A stretch of 29,464 nucleotides of DNA, from the IMG/VR virus record IMGVR_UViG_3300034198_006449, positions 1 to 29,464 of that record. One strand, written 5' to 3'. Positions within the stretch are counted from its first letter, which is position 1. Every line of letters starts with the position of its first letter. Source of the stretch: a virus. The notes beneath the pieces are model-generated. The model ran no database searches. It saw nothing but the letters and a program-made list of their open reading frames with translations, and was not told where the DNA came from. Both the position numbers and the translations under genes were made by a program. Below are positions 2,827 to 29,464 of the stretch, one piece after another.

Positions 2827-3188
2827 TTCTTATCCTTGGCAAACCCGTGTGTTTCTCTAACAATATCGTCTGGGTGTTCGTCAATAAGCAGCATCGGCCA
2901 ATATAATTCAAAAGCAATAGTATCTTCAAGAGCCTCAAATTGATGATATTCACCGGGCTTTGCTACGTGCCAGTCTCCTGCTTCAAGCATAGTTTCGTCG
3001 ATTAGATCGTAGTCATTCTTCCAAGTACGAATTAAGAGTTTTCCACTCTCAACAAAGAATCCGTTCCATTTATGTTTATGAAGATGCTTACTACAAACTC
3101 CACCTTTCTTTGTATCGATACGGTGAAATTCAAGTATACCGTTTGCGTGAATAAGTTCTGTTATGCCCCAAACTTTTCCAGATTTCAT
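2823..3188 (-). CDS. Cupin-domain protein
   Basis: A 121-residue single-domain beta-barrel (cupin) protein. The first cupin motif is recognisable as KHLHKHKWNGFFVESGKLLI (about 35-54), with histidines spaced as in metal-binding cupins. The second is represented by LEAGDWHVAKPGEYHQFEA with a proline-glycine turn and a later histidine. Such proteins include sugar epimerases, isomerases and small-molecule binding proteins. Placement between two methyltransferases and among glycosyltransferases favours a role with a nucleotide sugar or glycan, but that is inference. The ATG at 3188 is 12 bases from the stop of the preceding methyltransferase gene (stop codon 3201-3203) and is chosen as the only sensible start; GGAATAC lies upstream. 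Confidence 0.75.
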   Translation of the reverse strand: MKSGKVWGITELIHANGILEFHRIDTKKGGVCSKHLHKHKWNGFFVESGKLLIRTWKNDYDLIDETMLEAGDWHVAKPGEYHQFEALEDTIAFELYWPMLLIDEHPDDIVRETHGFAKDKK

Positions 3189-3200
3189 AAAGTATTCCTC

Positions 3201-4538: not shown

Positions 4539-5041
4539 AATAGTTTGGCGTATTGTATAATCTCGCTCTGTCTACTTATCTCTTTCACAAAATAAGCACA
4601 TGGTGGATCTTCACCAGTTGTCAATGGTACTGCTAATATTTGTCCATTACGCATTTTTGGAAAATACCATTTAAGATCCATATAGATATTTGTAATCTCT
4701 ACATCATCAAAACTAAATTTAAAACCACTTAATGGATTAAAGATAAAACAATCAAAACCTCTATCTGTTAAAGAAGTAAGCGGAATGACTTCTAAATCAT
4801 TTCCGCTTTCTCTACATCCTACAACAATACTCCAATCTAATGGCATTTCTATTTCGTATTTGCCTACCTTTAATACTACAGCAGGCGCATTAAAACTTTC
4901 TAAAAATATCAATGGTTGAAAAAAGAAATCAGGTTCGTTAGGATTAGAATTATCTAACACCGCGAACCTCATACTGTCGTCTACTTCGTCTGGTAAATTG
5001 TTTAAATCAAATGCATGATTATCTAATGTTAATATTTTCAT
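4535..5041 (-). CDS. Conserved protein next to uvsW, unknown function
   Basis: A 168-residue soluble protein with no transmembrane segment or signal peptide. It has a recognisable conserved core PLIFLESFNAPAVVLKVGKY (about 43-62) followed by EIEMPLDWSIVVG, and ends with a D-L-K-W-F/Y-F-P-K-M-x-N-G segment. From memory, proteins with this core occur in marine T4-like phages, but no biochemical role is known to the writer. Its start overlaps the uvsW stop by ATGA, so it is translationally tied to that helicase. A link to replication or late transcription is only inferred from position. Confidence 0.75.
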   Translation of the reverse strand: MKILTLDNHAFDLNNLPDEVDDSMRFAVLDNSNPNEPDFFFQPLIFLESFNAPAVVLKVGKYEIEMPLDWSIVVGCRESGNDLEVIPLTSLTDRGFDCFIFNPLSGFKFSFDDVEITNIYMDLKWYFPKMRNGQILAVPLTTGEDPPCAYFVKEISRQSEIIQYAKLL

Positions 5042-13535: not shown

Positions 13536-13543
13536 CATAAATA
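13536..13543 (+). promoter_or_regulatory. Late-promoter-like CATAAATA before the homing endonuclease
   Basis: Plus-strand CATAAATA followed by ATACT and the ATG at 13549. The sequence ATAAATAATAC is identical to that before the 756-residue gene. No Shine-Dalgarno precedes the ATG, so a leaderless late mRNA is suggested. Confidence 0.5.
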
Positions 13544-13548
13544 ATACT

Positions 13549-14235
13549 ATGAAGCACTATATTTACAAAACATCTTCGCCAAGCAGTAAATTTTATATCG
13601 GAAGACACTCGACTAAAAAAGAAAATGATACTTATTTAGGTTCAGGAAAATGGATTAAACAAGTTAAAGATAAATCTATTTTAACTGTAGAAATACTCGA
13701 GTATGCTAATTCATTTGAAGAATTATTATTGCTAGAAGAACAATATATTTTACAGCATATTAATGATCCTAATAATATGAATTATAATAATAAATCAACA
13801 GGATGGGCATCTGGTGAGTTAAGTTGGGCGCACACTGAAGAAGCAAAATCATTAAGAAGAAAACTTAGATTAGGTAAATCTTTCGACGAGTTATATGGTA
13901 AAGAACAATCTGTAATTATTAAAGAAAAAATAAGAAGTAAGGCAAGAGGTAGAAAGAGAGACAAAGCATGGAACACTGGATTAACTAAAGAAACCTCACA
14001 ATCGATTAAGTCTATGTCAGATTCAAAAATAGGAAAAATTCCTTGGAATAAAGGAATAAACACTGGTATTTCTACATTTAGTGGAAAAGAACATACAGAA
14101 AGTTCTATCAAAAAAATGAGAGAAAAACAAAGACTGAATAGAATTCAAAACCGTATAACCTGTGAGAATTGTGGTAAAACTTTAGATAAAGCTAATTATG
14201 TAAGATATCACGGAGATAGATGTAAATCAAAGTGA
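13549..14235 (+). CDS. GIY-YIG homing endonuclease with NUMOD3-like repeats and C-terminal zinc finger
   Basis: A 228-residue free-standing homing endonuclease of the T4 Seg type. The catalytic domain is at the N-terminus: YIY (4-6), KFYIGRHSTKK with Y-I-G (16-18) and the catalytic-position Arg19, then TYLGSGKWI. After it are basic, repeated segments (WAHTEEAKSLRRKLRLGK; PWNKGINTGISTFSGK) typical of NUMOD3 DNA-binding motifs. At the end is a C-x2-C-x12-H-x3-C zinc finger (Cys205, Cys208, His221, Cys225). The gene is on the plus strand between minus-strand genes, is AT-rich, and overlaps the end of the opposite gene by nine bases. Its own late-promoter-like motif lies five bases before the ATG. 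It probably cuts an allele of a nearby gene lacking this insertion. Confidence 0.88.
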   Translation: MKHYIYKTSSPSSKFYIGRHSTKKENDTYLGSGKWIKQVKDKSILTVEILEYANSFEELLLLEEQYILQHINDPNNMNYNNKSTGWASGELSWAHTEEAKSLRRKLRLGKSFDELYGKEQSVIIKEKIRSKARGRKRDKAWNTGLTKETSQSIKSMSDSKIGKIPWNKGINTGISTFSGKEHTESSIKKMREKQRLNRIQNRITCENCGKTLDKANYVRYHGDRCKSK

Positions 14236-14682
14236 AGCGTCATCGAGTCCGGCTATTCTAAGTTTAATGACATTAGTCAGTTGCCACTGTTTAATATCAA
14301 GACTTTTAATAACGCCTAACCACTTATTACGTAGTAAGGCAAATTCATTTATAATCTTTTCATATTCACATACATCTTCTTCACCGTCGACATATTTTTC
14401 TACATCACGGCTACTAAGTGCTCGTTGATAATTTTCTAGATATTTTCTAAAAAAAGAACTTCTTATTTTTCTTAATTCTATATTAAGGTATTCCAAGATA
14501 GCTTCTATTTCTTGTAACTGTGCGTATCTTAGTTCTACTATTCCTGGCATGTTAGCAGAAGCTTTTTCAATATTCCCCGATATCTTTACTTCTTTTCGAG
14601 CTTCTAATAACTCTGCTTCAAAGTATGCCATAGCATGGGGAAGATTGCTTAAATCGTTGCTGCACTTGGAATACCAACTCAT
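14227..14682 (-). CDS. Conserved helical protein downstream of uvsX, unknown function
   Basis: A 151-residue protein predicted to be almost entirely alpha-helical, beginning MSWYSKCSNDLSNLPHAMAY. Conserved-looking blocks are LRYAQLQEIEAILEYLNIEL-like (the sequence here begins ELRYAQ), then FFRKYLENYQRALSSRD, a short acidic VDGEEDV, and a closing helix LLRNKWLGVIKSLD-IKQWQLTN. The same order of blocks is recalled from conserved proteins of marine T4-like phages. T4 UvsY, the mediator that loads UvsX onto gp32-coated DNA, is a similar-sized helical protein ending in a comparable pattern, so a UvsY-like role is possible but not demonstrated. Its 3' end overlaps the homing endonuclease. Confidence 0.7.
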   Translation of the reverse strand: MSWYSKCSNDLSNLPHAMAYFEAELLEARKEVKISGNIEKASANMPGIVELRYAQLQEIEAILEYLNIELRKIRSSFFRKYLENYQRALSSRDVEKYVDGEEDVCEYEKIINEFALLRNKWLGVIKSLDIKQWQLTNVIKLRIAGLDDASL

Positions 14683-14685
14683 ATA

Positions 14686-14922
14686 TCACTCATCGTCGTA
14701 ATCGTTATAGTTGTCTTCTTCTTCATAAGGATTAATATCTAACAAATCTTTTATAGCATGATCTAAGTCATCATTGTGACCTAAAACATGTTCAAGATCA
14801 CGATCAGTTGCTCCATGATCTCCCAAAAGAGCAACATACTTTTCTGCTATCACTGCTTGATGTTTCTTGTCAGTATAGTCCTTGAATAAGTCCCACATCT
14901 CTACAATTAAACTTTCATTCAT
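14686..14922 (-). CDS. Small acidic protein after uvsX, unknown function
   Basis: A 78-residue protein with helical N-terminus (MNESLIVEMWDLFKDYTDKK) and a strongly acidic tail (NPYEEEDNYNDYDDE). The middle GDHGATDRDLEHVLGHNDDL is a conserved-looking helix-turn region. It overlaps the uvsX stop by eight bases and is followed after three bases by the 151-residue gene, so it belongs to the gp32-uvsX recombination unit. Acidic tails of this kind often contact single-strand binding or polymerase-associated proteins. No specific function is claimed. Confidence 0.7.
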   Translation of the reverse strand: MNESLIVEMWDLFKDYTDKKHQAVIAEKYVALLGDHGATDRDLEHVLGHNDDLDHAIKDLLDINPYEEEDNYNDYDDE

Positions 14923-16000
14923 TTACCGTTTCCTCAGTTTGTTCTATGACAACCATTTCTTCTTCGACCGATTCTTCGACGGCCTTAGGCTGTATTAGTA
15001 TATAGTCGTTCATAACCATATTTAAAAGCTCACTTTTCCACTGTTTACGATACTCAAGATGTTCTTTACCTTTTGAGTCTATATACTTTAGTCGGTTGCC
15101 TTGCTGAGTAATTATACCTTTCTTCTCGAAGAGGTCTAGTATTCCTGAGTAAGGATCCATACCTGTATCATAAGGAATCTTAATCTGAACACCTTCAAAA
15201 GGTTTAGCATAACGTGTTTTCATAATCTTACATGCGGCACGAATACCATTTACTTCACTAACCTTATTACCTTCTTCATCTTCTTTTAACTTTAATTTAC
15301 GCATTGCGACAACAATCGAACTTGCGTAGATAAATCCTTGTCCGCCACTAATCTTATCGTCTGGATCAAACATATCCTGTGAAGCATAAGTGTGATTAGT
15401 TGCTACAAGTCCAACATTGTAATTACCAAACATGTTAACACAATTACGAACAAGAGCAGTAAGAGCCTTTGGCTTTCTACCCATGTCACCTTTTAAGTCA
15501 CCTGCTTCGAACTGATTGATATCTGTAGGTGTTAGTAACATACCAAGTGAGTCGACAACAAAAAGAACCTTAGGACGATCTTCTGTTGCCATTTCCTTAT
15601 ACTCTTTCATAAACTCATGAATAGTTTTAGCAACATCGTCGATCATTGCCATGTTGAGTTTGAGAAGTTTATCTTCACTGGTATCAACACCTAAAGCATG
15701 TAACCATGCCTCATCAAGAGCGTTTTCACTGTCAATTAGAACAACAAAGATACCTTGCTCTTGTGCGTTCTTAATAATGTTACCTGAACAAATATAACTC
15801 TTACCAGCACCAGATTCACCTGCGAATACAGTAACCTTGCCAAGTGGAATGCCTTTATAAAAGTCACCGCTAATCAAATAATTAAGAGCATAGTTTCCTG
15901 TTGAAACCCAATCAGTGGGGTCGTTAAATCCAACGCCTAACCCGTCAATGCTTTTTGTTAATGTCTTACGAAACTTTGTAATATCGAATGTTTTTGCCAT
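14915..16000 (-). CDS. uvsX: UvsX RecA-like recombinase
   Basis: A 361-residue RecA/Rad51-class recombinase of the T4 UvsX group (T4: about 390). It forms a presynaptic filament on gp32-coated ssDNA and drives strand exchange in recombination-dependent replication. Motifs: Walker A GESGAGKS (61-68), the catalytic-base region VLIDSEN (Glu92), Walker B VLFVVDS (145-151), and the L2-type ISGGQGF (218-223). A C-terminal acidic tail rich in Glu (EEEMVVIEQTEETVNE) is typical. AGGAG ten bases before the ATG sets the start. It follows gp32 after a strong hairpin terminator (16022-16040), so part of its expression must come by read-through or from an internal start. Confidence 0.95.
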   Translation of the reverse strand: MAKTFDITKFRKTLTKSIDGLGVGFNDPTDWVSTGNYALNYLISGDFYKGIPLGKVTVFAGESGAGKSYICSGNIIKNAQEQGIFVVLIDSENALDEAWLHALGVDTSEDKLLKLNMAMIDDVAKTIHEFMKEYKEMATEDRPKVLFVVDSLGMLLTPTDINQFEAGDLKGDMGRKPKALTALVRNCVNMFGNYNVGLVATNHTYASQDMFDPDDKISGGQGFIYASSIVVAMRKLKLKEDEEGNKVSEVNGIRAACKIMKTRYAKPFEGVQIKIPYDTGMDPYSGILDLFEKKGIITQQGNRLKYIDSKGKEHLEYRKQWKSELLNMVMNDYILIQPKAVEESVEEEMVVIEQTEETVNE

Positions 16001-16021
16001 GAGGAATCTCCTAAAGAAAAT

Positions 16022-16040
16022 GGGGGAGATTAACTCCCCC
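16022..16040 (-). terminator. Hairpin terminator between gp32 and uvsX
   Basis: On the minus strand a seven-base-pair GGGGGAG/CTCCCCC stem with a five-base loop is followed by a T-rich TTTTCTTT. It lies just after the gp32 stop (16047-16049) and before the uvsX Shine-Dalgarno. The form is that of an intrinsic terminator, which would set the gp32:uvsX ratio if it leaks. Confidence 0.8.
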
Positions 16041-16046
16041 TAAGTA

Positions 16047-17027
16047 TCAGTTCTTGTTCTGACGTGCGCGAATCATAGAAAGGATATCTTGTGCCTTACT
16101 ATCTCCGCTTGTGGACTTCTCTGCTTCTGGAGCCTTAGCAGCTTTTGGTGCTGCCTTCGGCTCTACCTCAAAAGGGGCGTCCTCTTCCTCCGCCGGCGCT
16201 GCTGGAGCAGCCTTACGAGTGTTCGGATCGCCTGTCGCGGCACTCATACCACTTGGGCGATAGTACTGGCTCCACTTCTCAGCATCATATGCCTCGCCAT
16301 CAACAGATGCTTCAAACATCTCCTTGATAACCTTAAGCTCAACATCAGTTGGCTTCTTTGGCAAATAATCATTTAACTTAAACAAGCCATGTGCCTTAAC
16401 AGCATTTGACTCTTCGTCAGTTAAAGCACGTTCACGACGTGACCACTTAGAAGCACCGTAGTCAGCATATCCACCTTTGGATCCTTTGCTAATACGGAAG
16501 TCAACACCATGTACATAATCTGTTGGAAGATCTTCCATCTCCGGATCAAGTAGTGCTGAACGAACAATTTGGAATATCTGAGGACCAATAATAAATCTAC
16601 GAATTGGATTCTCAGGTGTAGTTTCTTCTTTAAGAGGATCTTCAGTAACTAACCCTTGGAAGAGATAAGAACGTTTCTTCCAATACTTACGACCCATGTC
16701 TTCAAGGCTCTTGTCCTTGAACCAGCCACGCACCTCACTTAGAATCGGGCAAGTCTCACCCCACATTTCAACGCAAGGAACTTGAACCTGAACAGGCTTT
16801 GCGTCCCCACTTTTTACACCTTGGAATGGAAGTTTAATCATCGCACGTTCAACCCAGAAAAATGTATTATCGGGATTGCCATCTGGGAGGAATCTAACTA
16901 CTGCTTCCTCGCCTTCCTTAAGGTTCCAGAACGGATAAATTCCGTTATCTCCGCCACCTTGTGAATTGCCTGATGATTTGTTTTCTTGCTCGCGAAGTTT
17001 TGCGCGAATTTCTGCTAATGATGCCAT
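16047..17027 (-). CDS. 32: gp32-like single-stranded DNA-binding protein
   Basis: A 326-residue single-strand DNA-binding protein of the T4 gp32 family (T4: 301). It coats ssDNA at the fork and during recombination, and recruits UvsX, helicase and polymerase. N-terminal B-like helix is basic (AEIRAKLREQ). The core has the family's IYPFWNLKEGEEAVVRFLPD, then VPCVEMWGETCPILSE with two cysteines (85 and 93), the position of the zinc site in T4. Only two of T4's four zinc ligands are evident here, so zinc binding is uncertain. The linker is Ala/Pro/Glu-rich, and a short C-terminal helix AQDILSMIRARQNKN ends it. AGGAGA eight bases before ATG sets the start. Upstream lie a late-promoter-like motif and a hairpin that may control it. 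Confidence 0.93.
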   Translation of the reverse strand: MASLAEIRAKLREQENKSSGNSQGGGDNGIYPFWNLKEGEEAVVRFLPDGNPDNTFFWVERAMIKLPFQGVKSGDAKPVQVQVPCVEMWGETCPILSEVRGWFKDKSLEDMGRKYWKKRSYLFQGLVTEDPLKEETTPENPIRRFIIGPQIFQIVRSALLDPEMEDLPTDYVHGVDFRISKGSKGGYADYGASKWSRRERALTDEESNAVKAHGLFKLNDYLPKKPTDVELKVIKEMFEASVDGEAYDAEKWSQYYRPSGMSAATGDPNTRKAAPAAPAEEEDAPFEVEPKAAPKAAKAPEAEKSTSGDSKAQDILSMIRARQNKN

Positions 17028-17069
17028 TGCCTTTTCTCCTATGTTGTGCCTGGCTTGTGCCTAAAATAA

Positions 17070-17097
17070 AACTGCACTATATTACTATAATGCAGTT
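17070..17097 (-). terminator. Hairpin in the gp32 leader: terminator or translational control element
   Basis: A seven-base AACTGCA/TGCAGTT stem encloses a second four-base TATA/TATA stem with loop GTAA on the minus strand, followed by TTATTTT. It stands between the end of the 756-residue gene and gp32. It may end transcripts arriving from upstream. Alternatively it may be the leader structure that gp32 of T4-type phages uses for autoregulation. Confidence 0.6.
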
Positions 17098-17098
17098 C

Positions 17099-17106
17099 TA
17101 TTTATC
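17099..17106 (-). promoter_or_regulatory. Late-promoter-like GATAAATA upstream of gp32
   Basis: Read on the minus strand this is GATAAATA, the T4-late-type -10 element with one change at the first base. A transcript started about six bases beyond it would begin in the first arm of the 17070-17097 hairpin, so late transcripts would lack the intact stem. Confidence 0.5.
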
Positions 17107-17131
17107 ATGTCAATATCTATTTTGGTATTTT

Positions 17132-19402
17132 TTAACTTACGCCTGCTAACTTACGCATACGCATGATATTTTCATCAAAGCTCTGTTTTAAGTTCTCAAT
17201 AACAGACTGGGCAACTGGAACTGCTCTTTCGCCGAATTTCTTTTCGACGCTTGAAAGGACACCAGTTTCACCTCTTGGAAAATTCCCAGTGTGGCGATCA
17301 TAGAGGCTCTTAACAAAGTCTTCAACTTCGTTTATTGGTTTATCTACTTCTTCTGCCTCTTTTTCATGCGGATCAGACATATCGTCTGCTTCTTCTGGTG
17401 CCTTATTAACCTTAGGCATATCTACGCCTTTAACATCTAATTCACTCATTACATCAGGAGCATGTTGCTGTACCCAAGCCACAATCATTTGACGTGCGTC
17501 GCCAGCAGCATCTTCCTGACTCATTTCTTTAAACTGATTAAACAAGTTGCCGTCATCTATGATGCCGCGCAAGCTCTCAATAGCATTTACACCGTTTGTC
17601 CCAACCGGGAATTCGTCACTCATTAGTTGATTTAATTCTCCAAGTGCCCTCGATTTGACATCCAAGTCTGTGCTTAATATATCACTCTTTTCATGTATAG
17701 TTGCGTCTAATAAATTAGCATATTCATCAACAGGATCAACTCCTGTCGAATGTGAAGGAGCACTAATAGGTGTATCACCTAACATACTTTCGAGTTCTTC
17801 GAATGAAGTGCTTTCCGCTGAGAACATAGGAACATACTTTGCCTTCTTTAACATAGCACTAATCATGCTATTAACTTCTTGACGCTCTTGCTTTGACATT
17901 TCACTGTAAGCATCAGCTACACGAGAAAGTATCAATGAAAGTTTATCATCTTTAACATGCTTTGAAAGATGATCAATAAATAGACCAACTTTTGTTATTG
18001 GGTTTCCACCTTCTACAGAAGCTGTACCCATTCTTGCCTGAAGTAAGCCTAAACGAGCCTGTGCCTTTTCGAGACCATATTGCATTTTTTTATCTTTTGG
18101 ATTATCAGCAACGGCCTTCTCGAAATCCTTAATTTCAGCATGGACTTTGTCCATTGCTTTCTGGATCGATCCCTTATCAAAAGGCTCAATTCTAACTTCA
18201 CCCATTCCTTTGAGTGCCATGTGTAAATCACCAACGTCGTCACCGGCACGACCCATAAATGGAATTTTACCAATTGGTTCAGCCGCAGCATCAGCAGCAG
18301 TTGGTTCATCTGTGCTCTTAACATTAGCAGGTGCTGCCTTTGAAGAAGCAGTCTTCTTTGGTGCTTCTTGCATTTTATTCTTACCAGCAAGCATCTTGCC
18401 AATTTCAGCAATACCGCCTTCTGTAACAGTTTCTTCACCAATTAGATCACTAATGTATGGGAAGAGATCAACTAGTTCCTCATTGAATTGTTGAATTGTG
18501 AATCTATTCTTAAGTGCTTCTAGAGTAGCATCATCTAATTCTGCTCTCTTATATTCTGTAAAGTTTTCTTTAATTGCTTCGTATCCGCTTTGCTTCTGAA
18601 GACGCTCAATAACTTTCTTAAGGCTAATTGTTTTATCTTTAGCAGCAGAAGCAATGTTTGTAAGTTCACTATTTTCTAGGAAGGCATTTCTATGCATTAG
18701 GTTATTAAACTTACGAAGATTATAGACATTTTCACTGAGCCCTACAATGTATTGTCCAAAACTATCATATGGATTACCGCCATTAGCAAGATGTCTCATC
18801 ATTGCTCTAGCACCACTTAAGTGATTGAATGGATAACGGAATCTTTCGCCCTGAGCATTTTCTACATAGATACTATCAATGTTTCTAGTTCTGCTATTAG
18901 CAGTTTCTTCTTGTACCTTTTGAGAATGTCTAATAATTAATCTAGCATTCTCGAGCTTTTGATAGCTCGACTTTGTCGAACCGTATAGGGCTGATTCGTT
19001 CATTTTATCTTCCTCAGTTTTATTAGGGCGTGCCTCTGCGGACATCTGCTCATAATCTCTTTTATCTAAATTCTTTTTAGTAATATCACTCGGGTCAAAA
19101 TTCATTAGTTTTTTCTTAGCAAATAATCTCATATCTTTTAAGAAATCAAACCACTTAGCTTTAACTACCTCATCTTGATTGTTTAAAATATCGTTACTGT
19201 AAAATAATTTTAAAGTATTGTCGTCGACAATTGATATGCTTACAGAAGCAATCTTCTCACCCTGAACGATAAAGTCAAAATCAAAGAATACAGCTTCTTT
19301 TGGATCAACAGTAGTTACACCGTCAACATTTCCCATCTTAACTGAAGGAAAGCGGCTCTTTAATTTCAACAAAAGATCGTTACTGGTTAGTTCTGTAGCC
19401 AT
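17132..19402 (-). CDS. Large protein of unknown function between gp17 and gp32, probable virion-associated
   Basis: A 756-residue protein with no recognised catalytic motif. Residues 1-100 are an alpha/beta segment (AVFFDFDFIVQGEKIASVSI). Residues about 120-325 are helical and conserved-looking (PYDSFGQYIVGLSENVYNLR). Residues 345-376 are a low-complexity Ala/Pro/Lys linker. The remainder is helical and highly charged, ending RMRKLAGVS, a tail form recalled in several marine T4-like proteins. It is placed after the large terminase and preceded by a GATAAATA motif, so it is probably late-expressed and related to head or packaged content. The leader has no Shine-Dalgarno; GATAAATA is seven bases from the ATG. 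It may be cut by the prohead protease. Function unknown. Confidence 0.75.
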   Translation of the reverse strand: MATELTSNDLLLKLKSRFPSVKMGNVDGVTTVDPKEAVFFDFDFIVQGEKIASVSISIVDDNTLKLFYSNDILNNQDEVVKAKWFDFLKDMRLFAKKKLMNFDPSDITKKNLDKRDYEQMSAEARPNKTEEDKMNESALYGSTKSSYQKLENARLIIRHSQKVQEETANSRTRNIDSIYVENAQGERFRYPFNHLSGARAMMRHLANGGNPYDSFGQYIVGLSENVYNLRKFNNLMHRNAFLENSELTNIASAAKDKTISLKKVIERLQKQSGYEAIKENFTEYKRAELDDATLEALKNRFTIQQFNEELVDLFPYISDLIGEETVTEGGIAEIGKMLAGKNKMQEAPKKTASSKAAPANVKSTDEPTAADAAAEPIGKIPFMGRAGDDVGDLHMALKGMGEVRIEPFDKGSIQKAMDKVHAEIKDFEKAVADNPKDKKMQYGLEKAQARLGLLQARMGTASVEGGNPITKVGLFIDHLSKHVKDDKLSLILSRVADAYSEMSKQERQEVNSMISAMLKKAKYVPMFSAESTSFEELESMLGDTPISAPSHSTGVDPVDEYANLLDATIHEKSDILSTDLDVKSRALGELNQLMSDEFPVGTNGVNAIESLRGIIDDGNLFNQFKEMSQEDAAGDARQMIVAWVQQHAPDVMSELDVKGVDMPKVNKAPEEADDMSDPHEKEAEEVDKPINEVEDFVKSLYDRHTGNFPRGETGVLSSVEKKFGERAVPVAQSVIENLKQSFDENIMRMRKLAGVS

Positions 19403-19409
19403 GGTGTAT

Positions 19410-19417
19410 TATTTATC
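19410..19417 (-). promoter_or_regulatory. Late-promoter-like GATAAATA, seven bases before the 756-residue gene
   Basis: Minus-strand GATAAATA followed by ATACACC and the ATG. It overlaps the stop codon of gp17. No Shine-Dalgarno follows, so a start at about the ATG (leaderless) is suggested. Confidence 0.5.
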
Positions 19418-20984
19418 ACAAATAGCTACTGATGAATATCGGCATGGGCAGCTCTTCTTCCTCAAGTCTATCGCTTATGCTTTGATAAATTGTTGGATCC
19501 CAGTCTGCTAATACACTAGACATTCGACATATTAATAAAGTAGCCGATACAAGATCATCATGCTCACCTACTTTAGCTCTAAATCCAATACCAGATGCTA
19601 CATACGTCTTAAGCTCCGATATTAGAGGTTTACTGTATATTGTCATTTTACGAGATTCAATTAAAGATTTAAGTTTCACACCAGCGGTCATCTTTGACTT
19701 GTGCGTAGTATTAAATCCTTTGCGGAACCTTCTAACATGTCCTTTACGTATTGGTTCGCTTAGGAAAAATCCAGGAATATTTTCTTCGCCTATATCCTTA
19801 ATACAAGTTAAACAAGCCTCACCGATGGCATTGTTTTCACAAGACCAATATAGCTGAGGATCACCTTGTGCTTTGATATATGTTGTAATATCCTTTAATA
19901 ATCTAATCTGTTGATTAACTGGAGTAGTATTATGATGCCACTCTCCAATTTGTTCAAAACTAGGTAGTTCAAATATTTGAATAGCGGAGTAATCTCCTCC
20001 CGTTCCTGTAGAAGGATCGAGTGCTACAAGATACGTAGCATTAGGTCTAATCTTACCGTACCATCTAACTTGTCCTAATCTCTCCTTAGGATCTATACCT
20101 TGTAATTCTGCTAGACAAACTGAACTAATAAGTGTTTCATCAAATACTAAGAACTCACACTCATACTCACGACGGAAACGTTCTTCGCCAATTCGTCCAA
20201 GTTCCTCACGCATCCAGTTTTCATCTCTATCTGGATGTTCTGACCAATGCGCTCGATATGGAAAAAATCCATTAACACCTACTTCGCGTTCTTCACCAAA
20301 TTCATCAAACTTATTATTTGCCTCAGTCCAGATAAGAGCAAATGTATCTTCGTCGCTGTTTGGAGTTGAAGTAATAATTGCTCGACCACCAGTTGCTAGT
20401 GTTGGAGATATAGAAGTCCAAAATTCTGTAGCAATGTTAGGAGCAACGAACGCAAACTCATCACAGTATAAGAGTGATATGGACATACCGCGTCCTGTGT
20501 TTGATGTAGTAGTTGCTGAAACAATTCTACTACCATTATCGAACTCTATACTGCCTTTGTTATAAGATACAACACCACAGCGTATATGATCAGGGCAAAG
20601 TTCGTAAGCATATCGAACACGTTGCATGATTTCTTGTGAACCTGTGTACTTATGAGCAGCAATTAGAATTGTTACGTCAGGAACAAACATTGCGTACCAC
20701 AACAAATAACCCGCCGCACAGGTTGTCTTCCCGCTCTGGCGTGGAAGCATGTTAACATTAAAACGATGTCCGTGATAACTTTGTACAAGTCTTGTTTGAT
20801 AATCAAAAGGCTCGAATAAAAGTTTACCTTTAACAGGATGTTGGATATAAAAGAAATGTTCCATAAAGTAGAAAGGACCGTTATCAGGATCCATACATGC
20901 TGACAATTCTTCTACTTGTTTTTCCGTGAAGCGTTCTTTTTTATTCGCCTTTTTGACAAGGACGCCGTCGAGACTTTTACTCAT
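19416..20984 (-). CDS. 17: Large terminase subunit gp17-like
   Basis: A 522-residue DNA-packaging ATPase/nuclease (T4 gp17: 610). It docks on the portal and pumps concatemeric DNA into the prohead, then cuts it. ATPase domain: Walker A LPRQSGKT (80-87), Walker B LLYCDEFAFV (171-180) with catalytic Asp-Glu, and coupling motif ITSTPNS (204-210). RNase-H-fold nuclease: first Asp in LVALDPSTGTGGDYS (Asp323), Glu in CENNAIGEA (about 382-390), last Asp pair GEHDDLVSATLL (476-477). It is shorter than T4 because the extra N- and C-terminal arms are missing. The ATG has no Shine-Dalgarno and sits four bases after a TATAAATA motif. In T4 gene 16 lies directly before gene 17; here two genes separate them. 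Confidence 0.96.
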   Translation of the reverse strand: MSKSLDGVLVKKANKKERFTEKQVEELSACMDPDNGPFYFMEHFFYIQHPVKGKLLFEPFDYQTRLVQSYHGHRFNVNMLPRQSGKTTCAAGYLLWYAMFVPDVTILIAAHKYTGSQEIMQRVRYAYELCPDHIRCGVVSYNKGSIEFDNGSRIVSATTTSNTGRGMSISLLYCDEFAFVAPNIATEFWTSISPTLATGGRAIITSTPNSDEDTFALIWTEANNKFDEFGEEREVGVNGFFPYRAHWSEHPDRDENWMREELGRIGEERFRREYECEFLVFDETLISSVCLAELQGIDPKERLGQVRWYGKIRPNATYLVALDPSTGTGGDYSAIQIFELPSFEQIGEWHHNTTPVNQQIRLLKDITTYIKAQGDPQLYWSCENNAIGEACLTCIKDIGEENIPGFFLSEPIRKGHVRRFRKGFNTTHKSKMTAGVKLKSLIESRKMTIYSKPLISELKTYVASGIGFRAKVGEHDDLVSATLLICRMSSVLADWDPTIYQSISDRLEEEELPMPIFISSYL

Positions 20985-20988
20985 GGAC

Positions 20989-20996
20989 TATTTATA
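20989..20996 (-). promoter_or_regulatory. 17: Late-promoter-like TATAAATA, four bases before gp17
   Basis: A perfect T4-type late -10 element on the minus strand, TATAAATA then GTCC and ATG. The spacing would place the RNA start at about the initiation codon, consistent with the missing Shine-Dalgarno. Confidence 0.6.
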
Positions 20997-21000
20997 GAGC

Positions 21001-21861
21001 TTATTCGCCTAGTTTGAACTTTTCCCACTCGTCTCGAACAACAGTTTCCATAGCCATAGGATTATCACCCTGCTTATAACTATTTGGATACATTGTCTTT
21101 GGCTTGTTTAAGCCGCCAGCGATCTTCTTTGTCATGTAGTTTGTGTCGCTCATCTTTGGATCTGGCTTATTGGCGAAATCTTCATCTTTTTGCTTTAGTG
21201 CTTGATCAATTTCTCTTAGGCGATCATGAATATCCTTGTAAGAACTATTCATAGTCAAAGCCTTTGACTTGTCACCTTCGCCGTGTGCTGATCCCATTGC
21301 TGGATCAAGTAGTGATTCATCTTCCTCTTCATTATAACGATGATCTGGAATATCATCAATAGTGTCAAATGGATTATCGTCTTCTTCATCATCCTCAGGA
21401 TCGCCCTCGCCTAATCCTAGGTCATTTTCAGCATCACTAATAAGTGCTTCTAATTCTTCTTCTGATCCACCCATAGTTGCTCCACCTGGTTGTGATGAAG
21501 TTGAAGGACCACCTGTTGGCTCTTCACTTGGATCAGGCATCATAACGCTCTGACCGATTGCCTCGGGAGCAGTATGTGGTGCCATGTCACCTGGAGGTGC
21601 TGGAGGAACTGCTGGACCATCGCCCTTACCAACAATGTCAATAGCCTTTACCATTGGCATTGGAGGTGGAGCAGATGGTGTTGGCATCATGTCAGGAGTG
21701 ACTGGACGTGGGCTTGAGAGGTTGGTTACCTTCGCCAATACCTCACCTACGTCGCAGGGGGAATCACCACTAACATTGATGCTTACATTGACACTTTCGT
21801 CAATGCGTGCCTTATCGCCAGACTCGTCTACAATTTTTAATAGTTTTTTCATATCACTCAT
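21001..21861 (-). CDS. Acidic Pro-rich protein between terminase subunits, unknown function
   Basis: A 286-residue protein in three parts. Residues 1-50 form a short N-terminal unit with MKKLLKIVDESG, which resembles the N-terminal leader of phage head-targeted proteins. Residues about 50-120 are a Pro/Ala/Met-rich flexible linker, and about 120-190 are a strongly acidic segment (many Glu/Asp, e.g. GDPEDDEEDDNPFDTIDDIP). A helical C-terminal part follows (SYKDIHDRLREIDQALKQ...). The mixed composition suits an internal head or scaffold-associated protein, but this is not proved. It overlaps the upstream gene by ATGA and the next gene starts 16 bases on, so it is co-expressed with both terminase genes. 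Confidence 0.65.
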   Translation of the reverse strand: MSDMKKLLKIVDESGDKARIDESVNVSINVSGDSPCDVGEVLAKVTNLSSPRPVTPDMMPTPSAPPPMPMVKAIDIVGKGDGPAVPPAPPGDMAPHTAPEAIGQSVMMPDPSEEPTGGPSTSSQPGGATMGGSEEELEALISDAENDLGLGEGDPEDDEEDDNPFDTIDDIPDHRYNEEEDESLLDPAMGSAHGEGDKSKALTMNSSYKDIHDRLREIDQALKQKDEDFANKPDPKMSDTNYMTKKIAGGLNKPKTMYPNSYKQGDNPMAMETVVRDEWEKFKLGE

Positions 21862-22424
21862 TTTCTAACACCTTTCGGATCTGGCATAACTTTAGTTGCT
21901 AATAGGCTCTTAGTATTGTCGGCTTTACCGGCATCTGCCATATCAACATTTAATTTCTCATTCTTATAGTTTGTTAAGTCCTTAAATAGACTTAGAATTC
22001 TTTTTTCACCTACTGCTTCTTGTGCTTCTTTTCCATGTGGGTTTTCAAGCTCAGAACCTAACTTTACAATGTAGCCTTCTTCTGCTGGCTCTTGGTATGC
22101 TTCAGTAGGTTCACAGCATCCGCGAACAACAAAGCAACTTGTACTTAGATGTGCTCTTTCTTTAATCATATTAGTAATTTCAGGAGCAGTAACAGGATAG
22201 TTAGCAACTACCTCAAACATATGAACTTCTTTATTTTCTAAATTTGGAAAATCTAATGGTAATTTTTGAACTGGTGTAGTCCCACTTGAACTTACCGTTG
22301 CGTCCCACTTACTAAGAACAGTTTTTAGAGTAGATTCAAATTTTTCAGGTAATTCTCCTGCGACTTTAACTTTAAAAGTCCAATTCTTCTTACTCTCTGC
22401 TAGATATTCATGTAGATTCTTCAT
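21858..22424 (-). CDS. Protein with possible capsid-targeting N-terminus, unknown function
   Basis: A 188-residue protein starting MKNLHEYLAESKKN. The N-terminal pattern M-K-x-x-x-E-(F/Y)-(I/L)-A-E-(S/A) resembles the capsid-targeting sequence of T4 internal-head proteins, which is later cleaved by the prohead protease. The rest contains two FKVKVAGELPEKFESTLKTV-type alpha/beta pieces around residues 17-100 with several cysteines (about 116-122), and a helical charged C-terminus. It lies after gp16 and before the acidic protein, in the packaging block. A GATAAATA motif stands 17 bases before the ATG, with AGGAAA nearer. The targeting claim rests on a short pattern and needs testing. Confidence 0.6.
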   Translation of the reverse strand: MKNLHEYLAESKKNWTFKVKVAGELPEKFESTLKTVLSKWDATVSSSGTTPVQKLPLDFPNLENKEVHMFEVVANYPVTAPEITNMIKERAHLSTSCFVVRGCCEPTEAYQEPAEEGYIVKLGSELENPHGKEAQEAVGEKRILSLFKDLTNYKNEKLNVDMADAGKADNTKSLLATKVMPDPKGVRK

Positions 22425-22440
22425 GGTTATTTCCTATGAA

Positions 22441-22941
22441 TTATTTATCCATTTTTTTAAGTTTCTCAAGAAGACTATTGCGATCAGTAACTACATATCC
22501 AGTTACATCAATTGGAGCACCGCTGCCATCTTCTCCTTGAGCATCCTGATCTAATTTTTGTTTTTTAAGTTGTAAGTCTACAATCTTTAGCTTCTTATCG
22601 AGCTTGGCAATTTTAGCATCTAAAGCATTCTTTAACATGCCGCCTGCTACTTCGAAGATTCTAGCAGAATAGCGCATTTCTACATTCATACCAAGATCCA
22701 TTAGATCTTCATATGCTTTTTCTGCTTTAGCAGCAAGATCGTCTAATTCCTTATCTGCTACATGCCCAAGACCGTCTACTGGGGGGAGTGCTTGAGAGAT
22801 TTTATCAAACTCACGCATAGTGTGTTCAATCTCTTCTTGCTTTGCTACTACAGTAGCTTGGGCTTTTATTTCTTTTTCGACTGCTTTAACTGTTTCCTTA
22901 TGCTCAGGTAGATTTAGCAGTTCTTCTAATTTTTTAGTCAT
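22441..22941 (-). CDS. 16: Small terminase subunit gp16-like
   Basis: A 166-residue protein (T4 gp16: 164). The small subunit forms a ring, recognises viral DNA and regulates gp17 ATPase and nuclease activity. A central helical region ELDDLAAKAEKAYEDLMDLG (about 65-84) then RYSARIFEVAGGMLKNALDA (about 90-109) is the gp16 core of two helices, followed by a Lys-rich coiled-coil (KLDKKLKIVDLQLKKQ). The C-terminal TGYVVTDRNSLLEKLKKM corresponds to the family's final strand-helix. T4 gp16 is adjacent to gp17; here two inserted genes separate them. The start at 22941 is preceded by an A-rich leader with AAGTAAAA. Confidence 0.82.
   Translation of the reverse strand: MTKKLEELLNLPEHKETVKAVEKEIKAQATVVAKQEEIEHTMREFDKISQALPPVDGLGHVADKELDDLAAKAEKAYEDLMDLGMNVEMRYSARIFEVAGGMLKNALDAKIAKLDKKLKIVDLQLKKQKLDQDAQGEDGSGAPIDVTGYVVTDRNSLLEKLKKMDK
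22442..22449 (-). promoter_or_regulatory. Late-promoter-like GATAAATA before the 188-residue gene
   Basis: Minus-strand GATAAATA that includes the final codons of gp16. A spacer of 17 bases with AGGAAA leads to the ATG at 22424. Confidence 0.5.
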
Positions 22942-22948
22942 ATTTTAC

Positions 22949-23389
22949 TTATTTTCTTTTCGAGCCCTGATGGAATAAATCGTTCTCATTTATGATTCGA
23001 AAATATATCCCTCTTTGTTTACACCAAGCCCTTGCTGATTCCCATTTAGCCATATTCTTTACATACTGAAATTGATTTACTTTATTCTTTCCAACTTTTT
23101 CTAATAATTGCTGGTTGCTTGGTTTGATCTCAACAACTTCTACATGTTGCTTACCGTTCTTATCACCATATACAATAAAAAAGTCAGGTACATAGATTGT
23201 TGATTTTCCTGTTGTGGGATCTCGATAAGGTATTTGTACAGCTTCGCTTGCCCATTGTGTGACTGCTGGATTTTCATCACACATTTTCATAAACACAAAT
23301 TCCCAACTTGAACGATATTTTGGTAACTTTGTGCCTACATACTTTTCTGGATTTTTTGGTTCAAATTTTCCTTGAGCAAAACGTCCCAT
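22949..23389 (-). CDS. 4: Head completion protein gp4-like (PD-(D/E)xK fold)
   Basis: A 146-residue protein related to T4 gp4 (also called gp50), which joins tail and head during head completion. The opening MGRFAQGKFEPKNPEKYVGT is the familiar family start. A PD-(D/E)xK/TnsA-like nuclease pattern is visible: Glu30 in SSWEFVF, Asp69 in VPDFF, and E-I-K at 87-89 in VEVVEIKPS. The gene starts directly at the stop of the 132-residue protein. Its position far from a portal gene differs from T4, where gp4 is in another cluster. Confidence 0.85.
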   Translation of the reverse strand: MGRFAQGKFEPKNPEKYVGTKLPKYRSSWEFVFMKMCDENPAVTQWASEAVQIPYRDPTTGKSTIYVPDFFIVYGDKNGKQHVEVVEIKPSNQQLLEKVGKNKVNQFQYVKNMAKWESARAWCKQRGIYFRIINENDLFHQGSKRK

Positions 23390-23787
23390 TAGGGTAATAT
23401 ATTTCTCTTCTCGTATTCAACGTTATTACTATTATCAACTCGATCACCTAGAATACTAATTCTTAATCGATTATAATTTAATACTTCTCTAACGATACGA
23501 CTTAGTTGAAGAGCATTTAAACCTTTTAATGTATCAAGTAATGTAAAAACGTTAATTTGATCAATTTTAGCTTGAGCTAATAATACTGTAGCTATAGATT
23601 GAGATGCTGTAGTACTAAAGCCTCTACTCTCAAAAAATCCCACAGTAGCATCTAAAACTTCAACAGGAATTGATATTCCTGAACTATAATAAGTGCTAAA
23701 AAATTTCTTTGCGATATAAGCACTGTCATTTGTTCGTTGATTTGATTCATTCGGTAATGGTAAGTTTGATATAGGGGTAATAGACAT
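23389..23787 (-). CDS. Small structural protein, T4-like marine phage family
   Basis: A 132-residue helical protein beginning SITPISNLPLPNES. Its core LLAQAKIDQINVFTLLDTLK and an N-terminal ISIPVEVLDATVGFFESRGF resemble a conserved set from marine T4-like phages that follow the tube-like gene. From the position between a tail-tube-like protein and gp4 it is probably a virion neck or tail component, but no direct motif shows this. AAGGATTAAC stands immediately before the ATG at 23787. Its stop overlaps the gp4 start codon. Confidence 0.68.
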   Translation of the reverse strand: MSITPISNLPLPNESNQRTNDSAYIAKKFFSTYYSSGISIPVEVLDATVGFFESRGFSTTASQSIATVLLAQAKIDQINVFTLLDTLKGLNALQLSRIVREVLNYNRLRISILGDRVDNSNNVEYEKRNILP

Positions 23788-23795
23788 GTTAATCC

Positions 23796-25169
23796 TTATT
23801 CGAATGGATCCTCAGGAATATCAGCTGCTTGAGGATTGTTGTTTATAAGTTCATTTACTAAAACAGCATTATTCTGTATATCATTTGTGGTAAAGTAACT
23901 CATATCTACCGCTCCGGTTGTTTCTGGTAGAACTTTTCCAGTGTTTGTGTTACTAAAAACTTGAGATTCATTAGATGATAATGTTGTTCTTGGTAATGTA
24001 GAATAGTAAGCATCTGATATAATAGGATCACTATTTCCTACTCCAGGTAATGCTGTAGAATATTGATCATTAATTGCTTGAGCTCTTGCTACTGATCCGT
24101 TATTAAATGATTCGTCAATTGGTGCTGTTACATATGGTTTATAATTAGTAGAATTTATTGATTCAGCAAGTGTAGCCGATGTTGAAAAATTATAATTCTG
24201 TAATCCGCTAGTTGTATATGGAGAAGCATTTGAATAGTTTAAAATGTTTTGTCCATACCCGTATGGTGCTCGATTGTTGCCGTAATATCCTGCTTGTCTA
24301 AAAGTAGATAACATGCCTATTGATGTATCAATGGGATTAAATGTATTATTTGAGTAAAGGCTGTATGAATCATCTATTGCGGCGCCTTGTAATACTGCTT
24401 GATTTTCTGGACCTAAAGGACTTTGTGCTTGATCATAATGTAAAGAAGCAAAACCTGTAGGATTATCTTGTGATACGGTTCCTGTAGTATAAATTACTGC
24501 GTCATATGCTAGTGACATTGTACTTTCGACAATACCATTACCTTCTGATTGATCCATTGTATCATGCTGCCATGATGTAACTTTAGGATGACATAAAAGA
24601 TAACTTGTAAATTTATGTTTAGATAAAGTTAAAAGTTGTACACTTTGAAAAAATGGATTTACTGCTTTAGTATCTAAACCATATCTATATTGCCAATTAT
24701 CTTTTCTATCATAAGCATGTGGTGTATATGCTGGAGGATTAACTTCAGTATAAGGTGATGCTGAATTCCATCTATCAGCAAAATAATATCCATAATACAA
24801 TGCCCATAACGCATTTGTTACGCCGTTATTATCATCGTGAAATGTTAGATTAACTGGTTCATATGTAATCTTAGTATAGGTAGTAGTTTTACGATTATAT
24901 TGATTTAAATTTTCTATATTTAATGTATACTTAGGAAGATCCATTCTCTTAACTAGATAGTTAAGTTCTCTTTGATTTTGTTCTTGGAAAGATGTATTTC
25001 CAACAGCGTCAGAATTTAAATTAAAAACAACATAAAAAAGCCATTTAGGCTTAGGTGATAACCTATGTGCGTCATCAACATACAGACGAGCAGCATGTTG
25101 CCAATCTCTAAAAAATATTCCTTCTGCGCTGTTACCTAAGTAACCATTTATTCCAATACCTGTAGGCAT
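23796..25169 (-). CDS. Tail-tube-like structural protein (baseplate/tube family)
   Basis: A 457-residue protein. Residues about 17-140 hold a tube-like fold: FFRDWQHAARLYVDDAHRLS, KWLFYVVFNLN, LVKRMDLPKYTLNIENLNQY, KITYEPVNLTFHDDNNGV and LWALYYGYYFADRW. This arrangement is typical of large gp19-relative proteins in marine T4-like phages. A second conserved unit follows (FKFTSYLLCHPKVTSW-type then STMSLAYDAVIYTTG), and then a long Asn/Ser/Tyr-rich C-terminal extension. It may cap or begin the tube or join it to the baseplate. It starts with no Shine-Dalgarno just after a terminator and an ACTAAATA element, so it probably has its own late promoter. Confidence 0.8.
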   Translation of the reverse strand: MPTGIGINGYLGNSAEGIFFRDWQHAARLYVDDAHRLSPKPKWLFYVVFNLNSDAVGNTSFQEQNQRELNYLVKRMDLPKYTLNIENLNQYNRKTTTYTKITYEPVNLTFHDDNNGVTNALWALYYGYYFADRWNSASPYTEVNPPAYTPHAYDRKDNWQYRYGLDTKAVNPFFQSVQLLTLSKHKFTSYLLCHPKVTSWQHDTMDQSEGNGIVESTMSLAYDAVIYTTGTVSQDNPTGFASLHYDQAQSPLGPENQAVLQGAAIDDSYSLYSNNTFNPIDTSIGMLSTFRQAGYYGNNRAPYGYGQNILNYSNASPYTTSGLQNYNFSTSATLAESINSTNYKPYVTAPIDESFNNGSVARAQAINDQYSTALPGVGNSDPIISDAYYSTLPRTTLSSNESQVFSNTNTGKVLPETTGAVDMSYFTTNDIQNNAVLVNELINNNPQAADIPEDPFE

Positions 25170-25174
25170 AATAT

Positions 25175-25182
25175 TATTTAGT
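25175..25182 (-). promoter_or_regulatory. Late-promoter-like ACTAAATA, five bases before the tube-like gene
   Basis: Minus-strand ACTAAATA differs from TATAAATA at two positions and is followed by ATATT and the ATG. It stands just behind the terminator at 25183-25222, so new initiation for the tube-like gene is likely. Confidence 0.4.
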
Positions 25183-25241: not shown

Positions 25242-25886
25242 TTAGAATCCGATATTTGTACCACCACCTGTTGATAGTACGCCTGCTGGACGTGGGCTAA
25301 TCGGAATACCAAGACCAGCTCTATCAAACGGTGTTTGGATACAGTTATCAAACTTAATTGAAAGTGTAATTGTTACCGGAGCACTTTGATCATATGCTAA
25401 TGTGTTATAGTTTGCGTTCTGAATATAGCAACCATACATTTCAGTTGTTTCTAAAACACCTGGAACGTTTACACCATTACCACCGTCAAGTATTTCGATA
25501 CGTAATGAGAACTTGTAATCTATACCAGATGCTGCTGATGTTTGCTCATAGAAGTCAAATTGCTTCTGAAGCTGTTCACCAACTAGTTGCTGTACGTTTC
25601 CGCCAACATCTTCACGAATTGTAAGCGTAATCGGATCCCAAGTATGCTTACCTGCTAGATAAATGCGGCTGTTATAAACATCTAATGTAATATCATCAAA
25701 TGTTACATTTGGACGAGTTACATCAATAACTTGTTTTGTTATTTCTGTTGAAGGAGTTGTTACTCCAAAGTGTGAAAAAGTGACCCTAAAGCGATATTGT
25801 AGCTTTGGCATCAATAGAGCTTGGTTTGGAGAGCTCACATCTGATGCTAGGGGAACTGTAAATCTTGATAGTGTTGCAATTGACAT
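25242..25886 (-). CDS. 19: Tail tube protein gp19-like
   Basis: A 214-residue tail tube subunit (T4: 163). It forms the hexameric rings of the inner tube. Recognised by the tube fold pattern KLQYRFRVTFSHFG (about 28-41), VIDVTRPNVTFDDITLDVYN (about 53-72), then HTWDPITLTIREDVGGNV and the C-terminal strand VTITLSIKFDNCIQ. The extra length is in loops and the ends. A perfect TATAAATA late element lies 23 bases before the ATG, with AGGAG in between. It ends just before the 25183-25222 terminator. Confidence 0.9.
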   Translation of the reverse strand: MSIATLSRFTVPLASDVSSPNQALLMPKLQYRFRVTFSHFGVTTPSTEITKQVIDVTRPNVTFDDITLDVYNSRIYLAGKHTWDPITLTIREDVGGNVQQLVGEQLQKQFDFYEQTSAASGIDYKFSLRIEILDGGNGVNVPGVLETTEMYGCYIQNANYNTLAYDQSAPVTITLSIKFDNCIQTPFDRAGLGIPISPRPAGVLSTGGGTNIGF

Positions 25887-25909
25887 CCTAGACTCCTAAA
25901 TCCTCTATG

Positions 25910-25917
25910 TATTTATA
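25910..25917 (-). promoter_or_regulatory. 19: Late promoter TATAAATA upstream of gp19
   Basis: A perfect T4-type late -10 element on the minus strand, followed by C and a 23-base leader containing AGGAG. The spacing is as expected for a late tail gene. Confidence 0.75.
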
Positions 25918-28900: not shown

Positions 28901-29385
28901 AACTTCTGTCCACCGGAAACAGTTGACGGAGAACCATTCCATTGGAAAATACCAACACGAGTATTTTGTGTATCTAACCAATATGTACCTGCTGCTGGAT
29001 CAGATCCTGGTGGATCATACTGAGCAATAAGTTCCTTAAGATCGATATCAGCGCGAATAACATAAGCTGAATTTGCTATACCTAGGAAACTATAAGCAGC
29101 TTGTAGTCCGTATTCGTTGAGTTCACCACCGTGAATTGGATTTTGACTTGGATCTTTATAGAAAATCGGTGTTCCAAAAAGATCAACTAGTTCTCTTTGA
29201 CTAGCTACTAATTGAATCTTATTAGCGTTTGCTGCTAATGTTCCTCTAGCAATACCTGTGCCGCTTGCGTTAACTTTGTCTTGGGCAGTTGCTAAAATGA
29301 TAAGTGGGCGTGTAGACGGTTCTGGAGAGACATAAAAGCTCTCATCAATTACTTGTACCTCTACTCCTGGTGACATCAACGTCAT
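25945..29385 (-). CDS. 18: Tail sheath protein gp18-like, enlarged with surface repeats
   Basis: An 1146-residue contractile tail sheath, far longer than T4 gp18 (659). The core is shown by LMSPGVEVQVIDESFYVSPE (3-22), the conserved SYVIRADIDL-like strand (about 105-116) and the C-terminal sheath core (about 955-1146) ending DIAIEPVKAIEFIYIPLRLK. Between about 130 and 720 are extra modules. Five are copies of a G-x-x-W/Y-x-(D/K/S)...-(L/I)-(F/Y/K)-x-W/Y/H-(N/D)-G-x-x-W pattern (about 133-151, 191-222, 373-400, 617-640, 692-718). Two resemble the flagellin 'hook IN' motif (about 249-293 and 500-552). The inserts are presumably on the sheath exterior. The ATG is set by AGGAGAACC. A stem-loop spans the stop codon. 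Confidence 0.94.
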   Translation of the reverse strand: MTLMSPGVEVQVIDESFYVSPEPSTRPLIILATAQDKVNASGTGIARGTLAANANKIQLVASQRELVDLFGTPIFYKDPSQNPIHGGELNEYGLQAAYSFLGIANSAYVIRADIDLKELIAQYDPPGSDPAAGTYWLDTQNTRVGIFQWNGSPSTVSGGQKFTNRVPLIITDATKLDELSGAPKGSIGVAGDYALVSVSNLNKLYYKNRATDLSVSTWVEVGTNEWHASWPAITSGKTNPTAIANTSSMVINGTEVFSSGTTVATLAADINLAGIRGITAAVVDGKLEIYSNGAVDSPQMDSTTSNAIVIAEGFTDTGDTPLVAATASASALGIAVGTYYGPALQISPHTSVPRWKAGLIDGATIDVAPRPTGSVWIKTTDVNLGARWRVKLWNTTTRDWDPINAPVYSNNEEALYRLDRAQGGRNIPTGALYVQYNFNEDSGTDSTPRVANFKIMRRVRPDPTSITSGIITASTFASGTYTLQIAETLATVATLQAFQTITLPLTGAMDDADVISEAINNAPFINIEASVDSKNRLIITHKLGGDFRLRDGTGTPMAFMGFYPYDLSANSGTPNLYRDPFDPDPDFGDTTWYIASNWKPLSYTASEDPPQSLPADGRLWYKSTLDEVDIMVHNGRTWVGYLYEGAGSGPVDYLDPSPYYQANEEFQTDPNGPIVQATKPTLQSDGTSLRHGDLWIDSGDIENYPALYKYDGFNLVWVPVDTTDQTTEDGIIFADARFNTSGANSDSQGTIQDLLTSNFIDFDAPDPDLYPRGMLLFNTRRSGFNVKRFVRNYIDNDLDNERFNNGESMDGYYPHRWVNESGNAANGAGLFGRKAQRKVVVKRLKAITNSNQEIRDFERYTFNLIATPGYVENLSNMNTLNSDRKLTAFVIGDSPFRLANDSTTLQNWATNASLAVDNGDEGLVTYDPYCAVYYPSGYTSDNLGNDIVVPPSHMVLRTIALSDNVSHPWFAPAGIRRGGVTNATSIGYVDAREGEFRSIALNEGQRDVLYAAKVNPITFLTAQGLVIFGQKTRARADSALDRVNVARLVIYLRGQLDKLCKPYIFEPNDKITRDEVKSAADSLMLGLVGQRAIYDFLTVCDETNNTPSRIDRNELWLDIAIEPVKAIEFIYIPLRLKNTGEIQGLV

Positions 29386-29464
29386 ATTGGTTCTCCTGTA
29401 TTACAGACTTCAGTAATATTTAGCTGATGGTCCTTAAAAAACGAGGTTACAATACCAATAAAGG
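29382..29464 (-). CDS. Possible C-terminal end of an upstream gene, partial
   Basis: One minus-strand frame is open from the window edge to a TGA at 29384-29382 that overlaps the sheath ATG in ATGA, the usual junction in this genome. It reads FIGIVTSFFKDHQLNITEVC followed by NTGEPI. Only 26 residues are visible, so it may be chance in a leader that also holds a GCTAAATA element and the sheath Shine-Dalgarno. Confidence 0.4.
   Translation of the reverse strand, partial: FIGIVTSFFKDHQLNITEVCNTGEPI
29417..29424 (-). promoter_or_regulatory. 18: Late-promoter-like GCTAAATA before the sheath gene
   Basis: Minus-strand GCTAAATA, a variant of the late element with C at the second base, 31 bases before the sheath ATG with AGGAGA between. 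It is weaker than the gp19 element. Confidence 0.4.

Follow-up and report, generated by a model that had tools for sequence, protein, structure and literature searches.

Late transcription of phage T4 is a textbook system, and its promoters are taken to feed messenger RNAs (mRNAs) that are led by a Shine-Dalgarno (SD) sequence. A -35 element is unnecessary for T4-type late promoters, and the whole of such a promoter can therefore abut a start codon. The T4 late element spans positions -13 to -6 (PMC1524935). On leaderless mRNAs, 70S ribosomes initiate translation at an AUG that lies at the 5' end; translation weakens with distance of the AUG from that end, and a change of AUG to GUG lowers the efficiency (PMC9031893). 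This study concerns the late promoter motifs in a fragment of an uncultured T4-like virus, comprising positions 1 to 29,464 of IMG/VR record IMGVR_UViG_3300034198_006449; this whole stretch of 29,464 bases, with a guanine plus cytosine (GC) content of 35%, is referred to as the window. Judged from these motifs and from those of its relatives, the best explanation is very probably that a class of T4-type late mRNAs with leaders of 0-3 nucleotides (nt) is made beside the SD-led class.

Late promoter motifs in the window

The late block of the window reads leftwards and comprises, in order, the genes of the tail sheath, the tail tube, a tube-like protein of 457 amino acids, a 132-residue protein, a head completion (gp4-like) protein, proteins of 166, 188 and 286 residues, gp17, a virion protein of 756 residues, gp32, uvsX, a 78-residue protein and uvsY. 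All late genes lie on one strand except that of a homing endonuclease, which lies on the opposite strand. An earlier reading made from the sequence alone (the sequence-only reading) had reported motif-to-ATG gaps of 4, 7, 5 and 5 bases, without SD, for gp17, the 756-residue gene, the tube-like gene and the homing endonuclease, and longer gaps with AGGAG or AGGAA for gp19, the 188-residue gene, sheath and gp32. On re-reading, the four short gaps are exact, no SD lies between motif and ATG in any of them, and every longer-gap gene has the SD ascribed to it. A fifth short-gap gene had been overlooked: the 166-residue gene carries the variant motif AATAAGTA at gap 4, a variant backed by the gp17 orthologs that lack TAAATA and have TAAGTA at gap 5 instead. 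The nine features are as follows.

20982..20996, minus strand: late promoter of gp17 (terminase large subunit), TATAAATA-GTCC-ATG (motif 20996-20989, ATG 20984); gap 4, predicted leaderless.
19400..19417, minus strand: late promoter of the 756-residue virion protein gene, GATAAATA-ATACACC-ATG (motif 19417-19410, ATG 19402); gap 7, predicted 3-nt leader ACC.
25167..25182, minus strand: late promoter of the 457-residue tail-tube-like gene, ACTAAATA-ATATT-ATG (motif 25182-25175, ATG 25169); gap 5, predicted leaderless.
13536..13551, plus strand: late promoter of the homing endonuclease gene, CATAAATA-ATACT-ATG (motif 13536-13543, ATG 13549); gap 5, predicted leaderless.
22939..22953, minus strand: late promoter of the 166-residue gene, variant AATAAGTA-AAAT-ATG (motif 22953-22946, ATG 22941); gap 4, predicted leaderless.
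25886..25917, minus strand: leadered late promoter of the tail tube gene (gp19-like), TATAAATA; gap 23, SD AGGAG.
29385..29424, minus strand: leadered late promoter of the tail sheath gene, GCTAAATA; gap 31, SD AGGAG.
22424..22449, minus strand: leadered late promoter of the 188-residue gene, GATAAATA; gap 17, SD AGGAA.
17027..17106, minus strand: distant motif of the gp32 gene (single-stranded DNA-binding protein), GATAAATA; gap 71, SD AGGAG.

The frequency of TAAATA in the window predicts 0.07 short-gap genes over 33 starts, and 4 were seen (Poisson P ~1e-6). Chance matches in a genome of such low GC are favoured somewhat by dinucleotide-shuffled upstream regions, which gave a mean of 0.36 short-gap genes and reached four in 5 of 2000 shuffles. 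The window taken alone is suggestive, and it is the comparative evidence that settles the case.

As a separate observation on the homing endonuclease, its motif at 13536-13543 begins with CAT, the opposite-strand ATG of a mechanically called 96-residue open reading frame (ORF); the true start of this ORF is probably an internal ATG that follows GGAGG.

Two classes of motif-to-start distance in relatives

Relatives were collected by two IMG/VR scans, one with terminase and one with sheath, which yielded 160 loci, or 159 (1.93 Mb) after dropping one overlap. The gap was measured from the NNTAAATA octamer to the ATG of an ORF of at least 60 amino acids. The distances fell cleanly into two classes, with a sharp peak at gap 5 (281 cases) flanked by gaps 4 (89) and 7 (45), a trough at gaps 9-13 with 2-7 cases per position, and a wide second maximum over gaps 14-36. 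This two-peak pattern was absent for A/T-rich control octamers. The genes before and after the trough are referred to below as close and leadered, respectively. At least one close-class gene was present in 154 of the 159 loci, the remaining five being fragments of ~4-6 kb.

When every hexamer in front of 1759 gene starts was scanned, TAAATA at gap 5 ranked first, above the SD hexamers and as the strongest hexamer at any distance, with 254 occurrences seen against 0.9 expected. The AT-rich background, which the sequence-only reading had named as a possible source of the motifs, falls far short of these counts; in T4, whose GC content is the same, 1 of 96 motifs is close. The comparative counts thus refute chance, the probability of which is negligible. 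Raw counts overstate independence, because about ten conserved protein families supply most of them and smaller families the rest, but the pattern still holds when counts are collapsed to homologous families: 17 families occur at gap 4 and 19 at gap 5, compared with 0-4 at gaps 9-15 and 4-8 at gaps 16-24. The octamer preference, with G at the first and A at the second position, is common to both classes, which argues that the promoter is the same. Judged by these distances, the split is simply explained only by a presumed mix of leaderless and leadered mRNAs, in support of what the sequence-only reading had proposed; its gap-7 genes are better described as near-leaderless, as discussed below.

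Sequence signatures of the close class

For the LEADERLESSNESS signature, SD sequences were found at 10% of starts at gaps 4-5 and 2% at gaps 6-8, against 67-75% at gaps 14-24, and none was located in the leader following the motif at gaps 4-8. Of 375 start codons at gaps 4-5, 370 were ATG, one was GTG and four were TTG. A pyrimidine stands directly before the ATG in 97% of genes at gap 5 and 93% at gap 4, compared with 55% in genes that have no motif and 44% in leadered ones; after weighting by family the comparison is 91% against 28%. Together with the A of the ATG, this gives the pyrimidine at -1 and the purine at +1 that mark transcription starts. At gap 7, an A occurs at the fifth position after the motif in 94% of genes, in most of them preceded by a pyrimidine, and the start is therefore predicted 3 nt before the AUG, with a leader ACU or ACC. 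Gap-7 genes, including the 756-residue gene of the window, are thus probably near-leaderless.

The same signatures bear on a different interpretation, in which the AT-rich element beside the ATG is an SD-independent translation enhancer on an ordinary polycistronic mRNA and not a promoter. The element does occupy the position of the SD where the latter is absent, but other late genes with an SD of their own carry this octamer 14-36 nt before the start, with the same base preferences, and the empty zone at gaps 9-13 and the -1 pyrimidine are left unexplained. In Deinococcus, tests of an element at this place showed it to function as a -10 region rather than a ribosome-binding site (PMC12340547), and the enhancer interpretation is considered improbable.

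It is about equally improbable that the motifs are real late promoters of secondary importance, and that coupling or re-initiation on transcripts begun further upstream accounts for most of the translation. Within the window, the distance from the preceding stop codon is indeed 13-16 nt for gp17 and the 756-residue gene, and the late genes other than the homing endonuclease share one strand. Across relatives, however, the median distance from stop codon to ATG is 56 nt in the close class, exceeding the 31 nt of the leadered class; the homing endonuclease gene lies on the opposite strand, and an unused promoter would not keep its exact spacing. On account of this longer stop-to-ATG distance in the close class, genome compaction was also rejected as the cause.

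Mis-called start codons, with the true starts lying downstream behind an SD, would be another source of apparent close genes, and the N-terminal alignment of the tube-like family is indeed weak. Nevertheless, the alignment begins at residue 1-3 for 100 of 107 gp17 orthologs, an in-frame ATG or GTG with SD occurs within the next 30 codons in only 3 of 327 close-class genes, and depositors' starts in the pelagiphage HTVC008M agree, which makes this source very unlikely.

Gene specificity among orthologs

The class is a property of particular genes. Orthologs of the 756-residue gene have the motif at gap 4-8 in 95 of 98 cases, and those of gp17 in 78 of 105 with TAAATA or 91 of 105 with TAA[AG]TA. 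Conversely, none of 115 tail tube orthologs is close, 102 being leadered with an SD in all, and none of 101 sheath orthologs is close, again with an SD in all. The gp32 motif is at the position seen in the window in only 3 of 76 orthologs. By family clustering, every classified member is close for gp17 (78/78), an HNH-like protein (73/73) and a virion protein (36/36), and every one is leadered for the tail tube (102/102).

The tube-like and 188-residue families use both classes, and in these the SD follows the class. The tube-like orthologs are at gap 4-5 in 50 of 66 cases and leadered in 11; an SD is present in 7 of the 50 and 9 of the 11 (P = 3e-5). The family of the 188-residue protein has 13 close members, none with an SD, and 70 leadered members, 51 with an SD (Fisher P = 7e-7).

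Two observations concern individual families. The HNH-like family is represented by a 113-residue zinc protein (MSRPMCICGFRP...) at L089:2915-3256 (minus strand) and 72 relatives, with gaps of 4 and 5. Orthologs of the 166-residue gene (window 22441-22941) are leadered in about 50 relatives (for example L137, L136 and L150), and the stretch from the late motif to the ATG is then a conserved leader, ATAGTAGCATATAATGG, that in most cases has no SD. This leader is possibly an operator or packaging-related, the latter because the 166-residue gene weakly matches a terminase small subunit family. Apart from the late genes, a second block of the window (5038-6510 and 1509-3776) carries a DNA helicase and likely auxiliary genes (glycosyltransferase, methyltransferase and cysteine dioxygenase-like).

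Late sigma factor and proposed mechanism

Of the six relatives searched for a gp55-type late sigma gene, four carry one and the other two are partial contigs; octamers resembling TATAAATA precede the gp17, tube, sheath, tube-like and 756-residue genes, as expected of T4-type late promoters. A late-transcription search with phrog_260, a guessed family number, gave no match in 21 records.

In the proposed mechanism, a gp55-like sigma factor of a T4-type late system would read a -10-only element of the TATAAATA type. For a fixed set of the late genes, the spacing of the element would direct RNA polymerase to begin at the A of the AUG (gaps 4 and 5) or, in gap-7 genes, 3 nt before it, and the resulting leaderless or near-leaderless mRNAs would probably be initiated by 70S ribosomes that bind the AUG at the 5' end. 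Late genes outside this set, especially those of the high-copy tail tube and sheath, would combine this promoter, located 14-36 nt upstream, with an ordinary SD leader. Since the T4 element lies at -13 to -6, gap 5 would put +1 on the A of the AUG; from this spacing and the -1 pyrimidine/+1 A signature we infer that transcription starts at the AUG, and likewise infer leaderless translation of the close-class genes.

Several points weigh against this mechanism. The counts come mostly from about ten families, and the result with shuffled upstream regions of the window is modest. The sigma gene is absent from the window fragment itself, and T4 spacing is assumed to be valid for a diverged sigma factor. 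Codons 2-6 of close genes show no CA enrichment relative to leadered genes.

Distribution among T4-like phages

In phage genomes and uncultured relatives, [AC]TAAATA was counted at gaps 4-8 and 14-36, respectively. T4 has 1 and 35 such cases, syn9 0 and 30, P-SSM2 3 and 52, Atu_ph07 2 and 56, and Paride 6 and 49 (of 265 motifs). Uncultured relatives gave 17 and 34 (G001) and 9 and 13 (G002). Among other phages, pelagiphage HTVC008M has 16 and 12, Mosig 8 and 28, and Melnitz 4 and 24, the last being too weak to stand as a separate case. A coarser count without ORF filter (gaps 4-5 and 16-36) gave 0 and 47 in Phosso, 0 and 46 in Vibrio 2.275, 0 and 18 in phiM12, and 1 and 48 in 121Q. The close-class ATGs of HTVC008M coincide with the deposited coding-sequence starts of gp2, gp3, gp4, gp48, gp25, gp13, the tape measure protein, CsgF and others.

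On the terminase tree at least two changes of state fall on well-supported branches, Mosig and Melnitz being labelled leaderless there on weaker counts. The close class of HTVC008M apparently arose independently of that in the window clade, a second origin for which the HTVC008M counts carry the case. Phage ribosomal protein S21 was considered as an enabling factor and rejected: it is encoded by HTVC008M and G001 and was not found in G002, and it does not discriminate because Paride and Atu_ph07 also carry it yet are essentially without the close class. A search of GTDB contigs for host identification found no relative.

Close-class genes here and in HTVC008M encode mostly low-copy virion or packaging proteins, in contrast to the leadered tube and sheath genes, and the mode of translation may therefore set dose; since an SD-less AUG should be poorly used in read-through transcripts, the close class may also restrict translation to late initiation. 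The purpose is perhaps low-dose, late-only translation, which is speculative. A broader proposal, to which we give slightly less than an even chance, is that T4-type late transcription evolved a two-tier late regulon at least twice, in the uncultured clade and in SAR11-type Kyanoviridae. One sigma factor would serve leaderless mRNAs for low-copy virion and packaging genes and SD-led mRNAs for high-copy tail genes, with translation mode setting dose and restricting genes to their own late promoters.

Comparison with known systems

The same promoter that elsewhere feeds SD-led mRNAs appears to yield gene-specific leaderless ones in a large environmental clade and independently in a SAR11 phage, which offers a natural comparison of two translation modes inside one late regulon. 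Transcription starts are predicted to the base, and start-site calls in many viral contigs could be corrected. A testable question is raised as to why these genes are chosen and how host ribosomes accept leaderless mRNAs late in infection.

The PA5oct/Paride-type jumbo phages, the closest cultured phages by terminase (56%), have the gene block and late sigma family in common with the window clade but carry late motifs almost only at leadered distances. Thermus phage phiYS40 differs in having an unrelated transcription system and a Thermus host, and it is not known to have a T4-type sigma promoter. It is a precedent in that most of its middle and late mRNAs are leaderless (PMC3594737). Genes of Deinococcus-Thermus likewise have a -10 motif at ~6-7 bp from the ORF, in most cases without a -35 element, and a leaderless product, but they are cellular genes read by RpoD and not by a phage late sigma factor (PMC12340547).

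Pelagibacter phage HTVC008M shares close-class late motifs at annotated starts, although this T4-like phage belongs to the Kyanoviridae and stands far from the window clade. In the open-access literature no report of its late genes as leaderless was found, and nothing on point for leaderless late mRNAs of T4-like or jumbo phages, which is not proof of novelty. The T4 late promoters themselves (gp55/gp33/gp45; TATAAATA at -13 to -6) have the same -10-only element before late structural genes, with a gp55-type sigma factor also present in relatives of the window; they differ in that essentially no T4 promoter stands at gap 4-8, the distances being leadered and mostly accompanied by an SD.

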